This document shows positions 3,653 to 33,771 of a DNA stretch of 47,443 nt, in pieces. The stretch comes from Bacillus sp. ISL-41. GTDB taxonomy: Bacteria > Bacillota > Bacilli > Bacillales > Cytobacillaceae. The notes below the pieces were generated by a model that was not told where the DNA came from, made no database searches, and was given only the letters and a program-made list of their open reading frames with translations. How positions within the stretch are numbered: the stretch's first letter is position 1; each line of letters starts with the position of its first letter. The DNA is taken from positions 1 to 47,443 of the forward strand of contig NZ_JAGGQP010000028.1 of assembly GCF_018613235.1 (NCBI RefSeq). The letters are read 5' to 3'. The position numbers were made by a program, and so were the translations under genes.

Positions 3653-3814
3653 CTATAAGCCTAAAATCAGGCTAGATTATGAAAATAACGAAAAAGCTTA
3701 TATAGAATGATCCTATAAGTCCAAAACGAGTCTAAATCATAAAAAAGGTTACATAGAATGATTCTATAAGCCTAAAATGAGGCTGGCTCATGAAAAAGGT
3801 CACATATGAAGAGT
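3653..3814. repeat. Three tandem copies of a 51-60 bp AT-rich repeat
   Basis: Copies start with CTATAAG at 3653, 3713 and 3764 and share AAAA, a TCATGAAAA-like centre and CATAGAATGAT ends. Copies 1 and 3 carry an AGCCT...AGGCT inverted repeat, which copy 2 has lost. This accounts for most of the 404-base gap before yusF. Nothing else convincing was seen in the gap. Confidence 0.8.
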
Positions 3815-3971
3815 CAATACCCCGAAAATGCCGTACAACTGGCTAGTCTAAATTTTTGCAATCTCCTTTAAAAACAGTGACAATAGAATTATGAACATAA
3901 CAGCACAAATTCAATATTCATGTTTATAATATTGTAAGTTAATTATCTCTGGTGCATAGGTGGTTATGGCG

Positions 3972-6688: not shown

Positions 6689-6721
6689 CACTTTAACGCA
6701 GTAAAAACGAAATTGAATATT

Positions 6722-6869
6722 CTTATCCAGAGAGGCGGAGGGACTGGCCCCATGAAGCCCGGCAACCGGTTGTGAAACACGGTGCTAATTCCAGCAGAGT
6801 TTTTGCTCTGAAAAGATAAGGAGAGATGATAAATGACCCTCTTCTTAGGAAGAGGGTTTTTGTTTTTTT
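6722..6869 (+). ncRNA. SAM-I (S-box) riboswitch with terminator, upstream of metY
   Basis: The P1 helix pairs CTTATC (6722-6727) with GATAAG (6815-6820). Between them are the S-box core CATGAAGCCCGGCAACC, the GGTGCTAATTCCAGC segment and a P4-like hairpin. A terminator follows: ACCCTCTTC (6836-6844) pairs with GAAGAGGGT (6849-6857) and runs into a T tract. In this class SAM binding favours the terminator, so metY should be off when SAM is plentiful. Confidence 0.96.
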
Positions 6870-8327: not shown

Positions 8328-8505
8328 CTCTTATCAAGAGAGGTGGAGGGAAGTGCCCTATGAAGCCCGGCAACCGTCATTAAGCTTTGCTAATGAAATG
8401 GTGCCAATTCACACAAAGCGAATCGCTTTGGCAGATGAGAGAAAGGAATCCACTATTATTATGCCTTTCTGCTCACTTGCAGGAAGGCTTTTATTTTGTT
8501 CTTTT
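8328..8505 (+). ncRNA. SAM-I (S-box) riboswitch with terminator, upstream of metN
   Basis: P1 pairs CTCTTATC (8328-8335) with GATGAGAG (8434-8441). The core TATGAAGCCCGGCAACC, the GGTGCCAATTC segment and an AAAGCG-AATCGCTTT hairpin are present. The terminator pairs GCCTTTCTGC (8463-8472) with GCAGGAAGGC (8479-8488), followed by TTTTATTTTG. About 220 bases with no clear feature separate it from the metN start. Confidence 0.95.
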
Positions 8506-11309: not shown

Positions 11310-11373
11310 GCCGCATAACAGGCCAGGAAAATTAACATACTAACCGAGAAAAAAGCAGAATGGAGTGGAAACA

Positions 11374-11745
11374 ATGGAGCATCACTATGAACCCCGGAAT
11401 TCAACCGAAGCAGCTCTTCATGAATATAAGCAAGGATTGGGAGTTTTCACGCAAAAAATGCCGGAGCTTGCAAGCCACTATAATGCATTCACGGAAGTAT
11501 GTTTTCAGGAAGGAACCTTGACGCAAAAAGAAAAGCAATTGATTGCACTCGGGATTTCTTTGTATTCACAAGATGAATATTGCATCATTTATCATGTGAA
11601 AGGCTGCCTAGATCAGGGGGCGACTGAAGAGCAAATTTTGGAAGCGGTTGGAGTTACAGCTGCATTTGGCGGCGGCGCGGCAATGAGCCAGGCCGTGACA
11701 CTAGTCCAGGAAGCAATGGCCGAACTGAATACTTTAAAGCAGTAA
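11374..11745 (+). CDS. yurZ: Carboxymuconolactone decarboxylase/AhpD-family protein YurZ
   Basis: 123 aa alpha-helical protein of the CMD/AhpD family. The core motif is [24 protein letters not shown]; it has Cys and His in place but not the CxxC pair of true AhpD, so peroxidase-linked activity is uncertain. Start ATG 11374 follows GGAGTGG; the GTG at 11365 lies inside that site. In B. subtilis yurZ lies directly between metQ and sufC. Here 2 kb of repeats separate it from sufC. Confidence 0.83.
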
Positions 11746-11976: not shown

Positions 11977-12162
11977 ATTAGTCAGCTAAAACTGAACTAC
12001 ACAAGTGAAATGGAGAAAGCGATGCATGGAGCACATGGAATTAGTTACGAGGTATACAGCATGAACCATGACGCAAGAATGGAAGTCGAAAGAAAACGCG
12101 AAAGAGACTATATCAAAAGCCAACGGATGGTCGCAGACCTGGACAGAAAAGTCCACTCGTAA
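11977..12162 (+). CDS. Candidate small protein, 61 aa, possible ATT start
   Basis: I do not recognise this protein. The frame reads SQLKLNYTSEMEKAMHGAHG... and ends in a charged helical tail rich in Glu, Arg and Lys (MEVERKRERDYIKSQRMVADL). No ATG, GTG or TTG in this frame has a ribosome site; the only well-placed site, GAAGGGATGA at 11961-11970, is 6 bases before an ATT codon at 11977. The alternative is ATG 12010 (50 aa) with almost no site. A candidate promoter upstream and a clear terminator 35 bases after the stop frame it as its own transcription unit. Confidence 0.5.
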   Translation: MSQLKLNYTSEMEKAMHGAHGISYEVYSMNHDARMEVERKRERDYIKSQRMVADLDRKVHS

Positions 12163-12197
12163 GCGAGAGAATATATATATAGAAGAAACTCTTTGGG

Positions 12198-12230
12198 AAC
12201 CAGTGTGAATGATACACTGGTTTCTTTATT
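12198..12230 (+). terminator. Intrinsic terminator after the small ORF
   Basis: AACCAGTGT (12198-12206) pairs with ACACTGGTT (12214-12222), followed by TCTTTATTATT. Confidence 0.8.
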
Positions 12231-12261: not shown

Positions 12262-13175
12262 TTAAAGATCAAGCTGTTATTGTGACAGGTTCGAGGAGTA
12301 AGGATGAAAAGCTGTCATGATCAAGCTGTTATTGTGACAGGTTCGAGGAGTAAGTATGAAAAGCTGTCAAGAAAACGCTGGTATTGTGACAGGTTTGAGG
12401 TGTAAGGATGAAAAGCTGACATGATCAAGCTGTTATTGTGACAGGTTCGAGGAGTAAGTATGAAAAGCTGTCAAGAAAACGCTGGTATTGTGACAGGTTT
12501 GAGGTGTAAGGATGAAAAGCTGACAAGAAAAGGCCGTTATTGTGACAGGTTTGATGTGTAAGGATGAAAAGCTGTCAAGAAAACGCTGTTATTGTGACAG
12601 GTACGAGGTGTAGGAGAGAAAAGCTGTCAAGAAAAAGCCGTTATTATGACAGGTTTGATGTGTAAGGTTGAAAAGCTGTCAAGAAAACGCTGTTATTGTG
12701 ACAGGTACGAGGTGTAAGGACGAAAAGCTGTCAAGAAAAGGCTGTAATTATGACAGGTTCGACTTGTTGGAGCGAAAAGCTGTCAAAAGAAGGAGCAACT
12801 TCAGACAGGTTTGATGCCCAAAGGGGAAAAGCTGTCAAAAGAAGGAGCAACTTCAGACAGGTTTGATGCCCAAAGGGGAAAAGCTGTCATAAGATGAGGG
12901 AACTTCAGACAGGTTTGGTGCCAAAAGGGGAATAGCTGTCATAAGTTGAGGGAACTTTAGACAGTTTTGGTGCTCAAAGGGGAAAAGCTGTCATAAGATG
13001 AGGGAACTTTAGACAGGTTTGGTGCTCAAAGGGGAATAGCTGTCATAAGTTGAGAGAACTTCAGACAGGTTTGATGCCCAAAGGGGAAAAGCTGTCAGAA
13101 GAAGGAGCAACTTCAGACCGGTTTGAAGGAACCAAGTGAAAAGTTGTCCGAAGTCGGTCTAACTTCGTATCGGGC
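12262..13175. repeat. 52-bp tandem repeat array, 16 full copies
   Basis: Sixteen consecutive units of exactly 52 bases run from 12307 to 13138, each starting with AAAAGCTGTC or a close variant. A partial copy precedes them and a decayed copy (13139 onward) follows. Units 1-9 (to 12774) form one subfamily with TGACAGGT right arms; units 10-16 form another with TTCAGACAGG and a CAAAGGGG end. In nearly all units CTGTC and GACAG are 19 bases apart and form an inverted repeat. Units 1-2 and 3-4 are near-identical pairs, and units 10 and 11 are identical. Because 52 is not a multiple of 3 and stops recur, it is not protein-coding. Confidence 0.95.
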
Positions 13176-13434
13176 CTAGCCTCCGTGATTAATCCAGCAG
13201 GATACCACATAGCTTAGGCTATCTAGTACATTTTTTTATAGTAGAAGGTGAAAAATAAAATGATGTACAAGCTATGAGCGGAATATCCGACTTTAAAGTG
13301 CTTGTTCTGTTAAAATGAGATTGTGTTTTGTCGTCGCATGTCGCCATCCAGCGAGCTGAATGGCGGGGTGGGGGAAGTGTAAAGAAGACAAGAAAATCGA
13401 TCTGCAGATATAAATGGAAATCGGAATTCCTGCT

Positions 13435-13742: not shown

Positions 13743-14528
13743 ATGGCAGGATCTGTATTATCAATTAAGGACCTTCAAGTTGAGATTGAAGGCAAGCAGA
13801 TATTAAAAGGTGTGGATATTGAAGTTAAGGGTGGAGAAATCCATGCGATCATGGGACCAAACGGTACTGGTAAGTCCACTTTGTCTTCTTCTATCATGGG
13901 ACACCCTAAGTATGAAGTAACAAATGGAACAATTACGCTTGATGGCGAAGATGTTCTGGAAATGGAAGTTGATGAAAGAGCACGCGCTGGTCTTTTCCTT
14001 GCGATGCAATATCCTAGCGAAATCAGCGGTGTAACGAATGCTGACTTCTTGCGTTCTGCATTGAACAGCCGTCTTGGCGAAGGAAATGAAATTTCTCTTA
14101 TGAAGTTCATCCGCAAGATGGATAAGCAAATGGAATTCCTTGAAATGGACCTTGATATGGCACAGCGTTACTTAAACGAAGGTTTCTCCGGCGGTGAGAA
14201 GAAGCGTAACGAGATCCTTCAATTGATGATGCTTGAACCAAAAATCGCAATCCTTGATGAAATTGATTCAGGACTTGATATCGACGCATTGAAGGTTGTT
14301 TCTAAAGGAATTAACCAAATGCGCGGCGAAGATTTCGGCTGCTTGATTATCACTCACTACCAGCGCCTTCTTGACTACATCACTCCTGACTATGTTCACG
14401 TTATGATGCAGGGCCGTATTGTGAAGTCTGGTGGACCAGAACTTGCACAGCGCTTAGAAGCAGAAGGATACGACTGGATTAAGAAAGAACTGGGCATCGA
14501 AGACGAAACAGTTGGGCAAGAAGCTTAA
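13743..14528 (+). CDS. sufC: Iron-sulfur cluster assembly ATPase SufC
   Basis: 261 aa ABC-type ATPase of the SufBCD scaffold complex. It has Walker A GPNGTGKST, the SufC-type signature FSGGEKKRNEILQ, and Walker B AILDEIDSGLDIDAL. ATP hydrolysis is thought to open the SufB-SufD interface for cluster assembly. GGAGGTAATATT precedes the ATG. It opens the sufCDSUB operon, the Firmicute order; sufD follows after 18 bases. Confidence 0.98.
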   Translation: MAGSVLSIKDLQVEIEGKQILKGVDIEVKGGEIHAIMGPNGTGKSTLSSSIMGHPKYEVTNGTITLDGEDVLEMEVDERARAGLFLAMQYPSEISGVTNADFLRSALNSRLGEGNEISLMKFIRKMDKQMEFLEMDLDMAQRYLNEGFSGGEKKRNEILQLMMLEPKIAILDEIDSGLDIDALKVVSKGINQMRGEDFGCLIITHYQRLLDYITPDYVHVMMQGRIVKSGGPELAQRLEAEGYDWIKKELGIEDETVGQEA

Positions 14529-24570: not shown

Positions 24571-24818
24571 CGATGGGGTAGAGGCGCAGGATTCAATAGT
24601 AAGCTGTGTGAGGATGACAACGTTGATCACAGCTCAAAGGGAATTTTGCCGAAGCAATAATAAGGTGAGTCACACTTTTTATTGCTGGGGATACTTTGAA
24701 CAAGAGTATCACTGTCATTATGGAGGAATATCCATAATGGGGAGCTACAGATCGTGATGGAGACACTAGTTGCTTACTAAGGGCAGCGATAGAATGTTCT
24801 CTATCGTTGCCCTTTTTT
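24571..24818 (+). ncRNA. Lysine riboswitch (L-box) with terminator
   Basis: Conserved L-box parts appear in order: TAGAGGCGCAG near 24579, GTTGATCACAGCTCAAAGGG near 24622, GCCGAAGC at 24648-24655, ATTGCTGGGGAT near 24681, CTGTCATTATGGAGG at 24712-24726, and GGAGCTAC, whose CTAC closes P1 with GTAG near 24577. The expression platform is a 12-bp terminator: GGGCAGCGATAG (24781-24792) with CTATCGTTGCCC (24801-24812) and six T. It should turn off the next gene when lysine is plentiful. It fills the 395-base gap after yunB. Confidence 0.93.
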
Positions 24819-33565: not shown

Positions 33566-33610
33566 AAAAGCTGTCAAAAGAAAGCTCAACTTAAGACAGG
33601 TTTACTGTCA
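33566..33610. repeat. Solo copy of the 52-bp repeat
   Basis: AAAAGCTGTC at 33566 and GACAGGTTTA at 33595 have the same arm sequences and the same 19-base gap between CTGTC and GACAG as the array at 12307-13138. It is closest to the second subfamily (CAAAAGAA after the left arm). Confidence 0.8.
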
Positions 33611-33771
33611 AAACCATACTCGCATTCCGTTAGTCGCTAACACAATTGCCCAAATCCATCCAAAATTCATTTCACTCCACCACCAAACTTTATCCACATT
33701 CTCACAGTAACAAAGAAGTAAAAATATTTCGAAATAACTCTCTAGGAAAAAAGGTCTATTTTAGCTAAATA

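Follow-up and report, generated by a model that had tools for sequence, protein, structure and literature searches.

The window analysed here, a stretch of 47,443 bp from Bacillus sp. ISL-41, contains a tandem array in the intergenic region between two genes which we take to be yurZ (11365..11745) and sufC (13743..14528), names that come from the original prediction. The features of this region, together with a solitary unit of the same family located elsewhere in the window, are the following:

11365..11745, + strand: yurZ-like gene, flanking the intergenic region on its 5' side (open reading frame and relatives)
12195..12225, + strand: intrinsic-terminator-like hairpin with a T-rich tail, upstream of the array (consensus scan only)
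12262..12306, + strand: partial leading unit, with a GACAGG right half-site and no left arm (sequence)
12307..12774, + strand: units 1-9, subfamily A, mostly CTGTCAAGAAAA...GTTATTGTGACAGG, 9 x 52 bp
12775..13138, + strand: units 10-16, subfamily B, CTGTCANAAG...AACTTNAGACAGG, 7 x 52 bp
13139..13190, + strand: degenerate 17th unit, AAAAGTTGTCCGAAGTCGGTCTAACTTCG...
13743..14528, + strand: sufC-like gene, 3' neighbour of the intergenic region (open reading frame)
33566..33617, + strand: solitary B-type unit of the same family, between diverging open reading frames

Direct reading of the sequence revealed 16 units in a row at 12307-13138, each exactly 52 bp long and with zero indels, as had been predicted, and TRF returned a period of 52 for both halves of the array. 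The inverted arms were also found as described: CTGTC was intact in 14 and GACAG in 15 of the 16 units, with both present in 13, and the exceptions were exactly those named before, CTGACA in units 3 and 5 and GACCG in unit 16. The claim of two strongly differing subfamilies was borne out as well, since units 1-9 were 84% and units 10-16 83% identical among themselves, compared to 58% across subfamilies. The window array is thereby confirmed as a genuine feature. Its conserved arms are often longer (AAAGCTGTC...GACAG[G/C]TTT), and its partial first unit starts approximately 40 bp past the terminator-like hairpin.

Other elements were observed in the window. An open reading frame of 50 amino acids (12010-12162) lies upstream of the terminator and the array, and its DNA occupies the same place in loci L010 and L013. 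A second, unrelated array of period 51, with about 2-3 units, 81% matches in TRF and short internal inverted repeats, was found at 3663-3847. Rfam searches identified two SAM riboswitches and one lysine riboswitch, located at 6720-6822, 8328-8441, and 24571-24755.

Distribution and inheritance of the arrays

The genome-wide unit search proposed with the original prediction was run, and CTGTC-N19-GACAG was found 225 times in the genome against 5 times for the reversed-pattern control, which places the array far beyond chance. In the genus survey, 18 of the 21 genomes were positive, with 19-414 pairs per genome and controls of 0-6; the remaining three had 7, 3, and 2 pairs, equal to the control level, and one of these (G015) still has 63 tandem TGTC-N19-GACA-N25 matches. 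The outcome named beforehand as speaking against the prediction, namely further copies that vary randomly in length and lack conserved arms, was looked for and not found. Judging by the labels of the nearest yurZ loci, the source genome very probably belongs to the genus Mesobacillus: these loci come from Bacillus sp. ISL strains, Mesobacillus selenatarsenatis, M. boroniphilus, and M. subterraneus, together with one record labelled Chryseobacterium and one labelled Cytobacillus.

Of the nine nearest loci, seven (L005-L011) have an array between yurZ and sufC, L012 shows no array, and in L013 a degenerate array runs into the end of the contig. The window, L005, and L009 share the order of A-type units followed by B-type units, and the copy number at the same site varies between species. 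In genomes G000 and G007, three array sites are orthologous by their flanking DNA (84-89% identity over kilobases). The array consensuses of these three pairs agree at 34-35 of 37 core positions and 8-11 of 15 spacer positions, compared to a mean agreement of 28.4 core and 5.9 spacer positions in 125 other array pairs, where the best spacer score was 12. The orthologous arrays of G000 and G007 and the recurrence at yurZ-sufC indicate that arrays are mostly inherited in place, and the yurZ-sufC array site is old.

A self-similarity scan for periods of 12-119 bp was carried out on 327 kb, comprising the window and contig stretches with known matches and thus enriched for the family. The scan revealed 11 arrays, of which six had a period of 52 bp, one of 104 bp (the window array), two of 53 bp, one of 51 bp, and one of 21 bp. 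The yurZ loci from other genera, 580 kb in total, yielded five arrays with a period of 52 or 104 bp, one of them weak, and one locus contained 21- and 41-bp arrays. Several G000 contigs, C2 (end) and C5, C6, C8, C28, and C48 (starts), begin or terminate within a 52-bp array or unit; these repeats are therefore probable breakpoints of the assemblies, and there may be more arrays than were counted. The genome also contains two 53-bp arrays of different sequence (L099:9772-10037 and L095:18021-18216), each with long inverted arms. In Bacillus sp. REN3, a long 21/41-bp array lies upstream of yurZ (L014:2586-3791); its period is close to the second size class of repeats that has been described in Bacillus (20-21 nt).

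Tandem repeats of 52 nt in Bacillus and other Firmicutes form a class described by Subirana and Messeguer (2021; PMC8161180), who concluded that repeat length must matter and suggested a polymerising protein or small RNAs. They report that the sequence is not conserved between species, and list close species, with B. selenatarsenatis sharing repeats with B. boroniphilus and B. subterraneus. The array in the window is a chromosomal member of this known class of Bacillus-type bacteria, which it resembles in length, in being non-coding, in the presence of several same-length families per genome, and in short motifs that often occur with their reverse in the unit (PMC8161180). Against a class range of 51-53 nt and at least 4 repeats, it has 16 units of 52 bp; other 51-53-bp arrays occur at window 3663-3847, L095, and L099; of 35 arrays and solitary units, not one extends into a called gene beyond a single base; and CTGTC occurs together with GACAG in 13 of the 16 units. 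The difference lies in the internal geometry: the description of the class in PMC8161180 does not seem to report a fixed one, whereas TGTC-N19-GACA-N25 was here common to 30 genera.

Table 1 of PMC8161180 prompted the idea that an outer TGTC/GACA with a 19-bp interior recurs. Among the 25 consensus units of that table, five carry TGTC-N19-GACA and the others have differing arms, or none found by the arm search, so the 52-bp class is wider than the signature. Among the 397 genomes of the order, the tandem signature TGTC-N19-GACA-N25-TGTC-N19-GACA was detected in 69, which belong to 30 of the 135 genera; the highest number in a single genome was 584 matches, while 54 of these 69 genomes had five or more matches and seven had one. 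Its reversed control gave 0 matches in all order genomes except G014 (1 match), and in a class sample outside the order the signature occurred in 3 of 360 genomes, all from one family. Half-sites were common to distant genera, TGTCCTTCAT occurring in 10 and TGTC[CT]AATAG in 5 of the 19 genomes sampled. In 203 distinct units sampled from 19 genomes outside the genus, TGTC was followed by C or T at all 406 half-sites, but A or G takes this place in listed units of G207, G549, and G559; in Mesobacillus this base is mostly A, which was seen at 239 left and 182 right half-sites of 247 distinct units. The half-site signature and its exact spacing, common to many genera, are new here.

Constancy of the spacing

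A position-weight scan of 43 loci detected 282 units, and none on reversed sequences. Out of 247 intervals between these units, 237 measured 52 bp, four 51 bp, and two 53 bp, with one each of 60, 65, 100, and 103 bp. The modal interval was 52 bp in 29 of 30 arrays with at least three units, the exception being L010, which has one interval of 52 and one of 103 bp. Comparison of neighbouring units over the 244 intervals of up to 60 bp, with the intervals of 65, 100, and 103 bp left out, gave 1,600 substitutions and seven length changes, corresponding to 229 substitutions per change. In the yurZ-sufC flanks of seven loci, the ratio was 2.6-4.2 substitutions per gap under loose scoring and 18-21 under very stiff scoring (four scoring schemes, with pairwise counts that are not independent). 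Indels in the arrays are thus approximately 11-fold depleted compared to the flanks at the stiffest gap scoring, and more so with the other schemes. Mean identity among 24 arrays compared was 37% in the spacers and 75% in the cores.

The same constancy was observed across the order. When the spacer between tandem units was left free at 14-36 bp, it was exactly 25 bp in 5,948 of 6,131 tandem pairs (97.0%), with all 22 other lengths together accounting for 183, counts that overstate the number of independent events because units within one array are not independent. This test covered 36 of the 69 positive genomes, from 20 genera and mostly those with many matches, and the 25-bp spacer was dominant in all 36. 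Outside the genus, the 25-bp spacer was found in 2,412 of 2,497 tandem pairs from 26 genomes; spacing was looser in G116 (25 bp in 24 of 40 pairs) and G373 (22 of 29).

These results support the constraint on spacing that the original prediction had put forward, given the depletion of indels compared to the flanks and the 97.0% of pairs with a 25-bp spacer despite spacer drift. The five-turn helical phasing proposed at the same time is, taken alone, insufficient to account for this: repeats of 42 and 62 bp were covered by the spacer test and were nearly absent. The near absence of spacers one turn away (about 15 or 35 bp) implies that the exact distance matters, and not only the face of the helix.

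A neutral minisatellite, in which one ancestral 52-bp repeat spread and the constant length reflects shared ancestry and homogenisation, would account for the concerted likeness of units within an array, for the copy number that differs between species at the same site, and for the existence of solitary units. It is at odds, however, with spacers that are down to 37% identity between arrays while 29 of 30 arrays keep the modal interval, with the indel depletion of about 11-fold or more, with a dominant 25-bp spacer in all 36 tested genomes of 20 genera, and with drift that affects the centre and spacer but spares the outer arms. We regard this explanation as quite improbable.

Covariation, folding and gene context

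The original prediction also allowed that the array RNA forms a string of equal hairpins. Such a transcript might serve as a small RNA, a sponge, an RNase III substrate or a 3'-end element. In line with this possibility, repeats of the 52-nt class are reported to be transcribed in B. coagulans, as shown by RNA-seq (Subirana and Messeguer, PMC8625621). The covariance test proposed in the original prediction was run on one unit from each of 30 arrays, seven of which represent one orthologous site. In these Mesobacillus units the arms are nearly invariant, and the centre and spacer drift. Interior pairs showed no excess over shuffled pairing (z -2.0 to 0.2), several of them pairing below the shuffled level, with the exception of pair 14/24, whose excess (z 2.7 in the 30 arrays and 5.4 in 202 distinct cores) speaks for RNA and probably results from the split between A and B types. 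Compensatory pairing is thus nearly absent. The base opposite G4 was G in 21 and C in 9 of the 30 arrays, so that 4/34 is more often mismatched (G.G) than not. One reversed-sequence control was invalid in Mesobacillus because the arms are palindromic, and its loci from other genera had been picked beforehand by the 19-bp pattern.

Covariation pooled across other genera was seemingly strong, with z up to 9.6. Within three half-site types of these genera (103, 34, and 22 distinct units), the two halves varied independently; the pooled signal was put down to the mixing of half-site types, since it vanishes within them. RNA folding gave z values of -7.5 to -8.1 for three arrays from other genera, in which an RNA role is conceivable, and moderate values of -2.3 and -3.5 for the window, whereas the L107 array folded no better than its shuffles (z -0.3). 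No window-array match in Rfam reached the gathering cut-off, and the sole match up to E 1 was an insect lncRNA model (E 0.23, 22.6 bits compared to a cut-off of 40).

Unit orientation relative to genes showed no preference among 21 arrays with both neighbours called (7 <<, 6 >>, 4 <>, and 4 ><), orientation being uncertain where units are near-palindromic. In a test of 78 arrays based on crude calls of open reading frames of at least 90 amino acids, divergent gaps were avoided (4/78 arrays compared to 92/367 background gaps; Fisher p 2.9e-5) and convergent gaps were favoured (26/78 compared to 49/367; p 8.2e-5). The number of divergent Mesobacillus arrays differed by caller, being 4/21 with coding-scored open reading frames and 0/20 with those of at least 90 amino acids. 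A terminator-like site was found for 35 of 98 array-facing gene ends, and it was located before the array in 27 cases, inside it in one, and after it in seven; this strict scan found none for the other 63 ends and misses the terminator-like hairpin of the window at 12195-12225. With a cruder list of open reading frames, 5 of 84 arrays overlapped one of at least 150 amino acids by more than 30 bp, which we read as chance open reading frames running through repeats. These observations favour a position of the arrays mostly outside transcription units and promoters.

Within the genus, a string of RNA hairpins is therefore not supported, given interior pairs that do not covary save for 14/24 and units in both orientations to genes. 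The enrichment in convergent gaps, i.e., at 3' ends, and the strong folds of the three arrays from other genera are what an RNA function would lead one to expect; the independently varying halves, the L107 array, and the terminators placed before the array, in the window as in 27 of the 35 detected cases, are not, and we consider such a function unlikely. Taken together, the arms, covariation, orientation, gaps, and terminators favour selection on DNA with two half-sites at a fixed distance.

A putative protein platform and comparable systems

The array may well be a DNA-level platform for a putative dimeric protein that reads TGTC half-sites in exact register; we hold the chances of this to be about evenly balanced, and favour it over RNA hairpins, a neutral minisatellite, and REP elements driven by a transposase, all of which fit worse. 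Each unit is an inverted pair of half-sites (AAAGCTGTC and GACAG[G,C]TTT here, TGTC-N19-GACA order-wide), with the next pair following exactly 25 bp on in the TGTC register, and a dimeric DNA-binding protein would bind it through both half-sites. The exact 52-bp register, of about five helical turns, could bring neighbouring bound dimers into contact or allow them to form a polymer on the array, and five turns would set all dyads on one helix face. The result would be a multi-copy nucleoprotein platform of plasmid-centromere-like design, usually on the 3' side of genes, with local nucleoid structure, tethering or insulation as candidate roles. Its copy number would be altered by ordinary unequal exchange, so that array length drifts and the register is held.

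The centromere sopC of the F plasmid consists of 43-bp tandem direct repeats at a single locus of the plasmid, next to the par genes that belong to it. By analogy, both systems have tandem repeats of fixed length with an inverted repeat in each, which is bound by a dimeric ParB/SopB-type protein in sopC and may be bound by a dimer here; they differ in that 43-bp repeats at one plasmid locus stand against 52-bp repeats at many chromosomal loci. The spacers of the present arrays are alike within an array and are not the unique spacers between identical repeats that characterise CRISPR.

The REP/BIME elements associated with RAYT are short palindromes with a conserved foot motif, intergenic and often clustered. 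Selfish or mobile palindromes of this type that a Y1 transposase (RAYT) mobilises, or the sites of a site-specific recombinase, would agree with the patchy distribution over genera, with solitary units, and with short palindromes that have a conserved foot and are mostly intergenic. The foot tags named for REP are GTAG/CGTC (PMC3733652), whereas the arms here are CTGTC/GACAG without such a tag and in a strict 52-bp register. Tn3-family res sites share facing TGTC-type half-sites, with 25 bp from TGTC to TACA in site III compared to 27 bp from TGTC to GACA in the array unit, and the crystallised oligonucleotide of res site III also starts with TGTC (PMC9943657). Res differs, however, in having three dimer sites, in a transposon with a resolvase, with a spacer in site II that exceeds the one in site III by 9 bp (PMC9943657), where the arrays here are uniform; the resemblance to site III is taken as an analogy only. 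Array positions and array-specific spacers inherited in place also count against mobility, as does the lack of a BLAST match for the window array in plasmid and phage collections; 19 viral contigs have one isolated two-unit match each, and these look like chance.

Candidate partners were compared between two hand-picked sets, 20 genomes with the signature (G007, positive in the genus survey, and 19 from the list of 69) and 20 of the 328 signature-free genomes, in which other families of 52 bp may still occur. The comparison yielded no binding protein, as the families Y1_Tnp, Resolvase, and NERD fail to track the signature in these 40 genomes. Y1_Tnp occurred in 19/20 signature-bearing compared to 17/20 signature-free genomes and was absent from G006, a repeat-rich genome with 506 signature matches, and Resolvase, the serine resolvase family, occurred in 40/40 genomes with no separation. 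Transposase- or recombinase-driven spread is thus, in our judgement, also rather improbable. NERD genes end 46-143 bp from an array in G000 and G007 (one orthologous site), G041, G247, and G349, and one lies 1.6 kb from an array in G137 (NERD genes near arrays: L111:4195-5103, L094:5861-6769, L161:5430-6272, L132:3977-4882, and L157:3937-4848). NERD was dropped because none of 30 NERD loci, the best-scoring matches in the 40 genomes, carries a two-unit signature within the stretch fetched.

Beyond the single array, it is possible, although we lean against it, that TGTC-N19-GACA-N25 arrays are an order-wide satellite docking one conserved, patchily distributed family of dimeric proteins that would polymerise in an exact 52-bp register, with half-sites co-evolving by genus. 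If true, bacteria would possess arrays that correspond in design to centromeric or insulator satellites. Constant length combined with seemingly inconstant sequence has earned the 52-nt repeats the label enigmatic. A search of titles and abstract openings in the open-licence PMC literature returned neither a function for them nor a named TGTC-N19-GACA signature. The common half-site signature and its exact spacing turn the matter into a testable question, namely which protein reads TGTC-N19-GACA at 52-bp intervals, and the list of presence and absence (69 of 397 genomes) is a ready phylogenetic profile for the protein search. A gene presumably of the LCP family was also observed to recur beside arrays, in G041/G151, G310, and G330.
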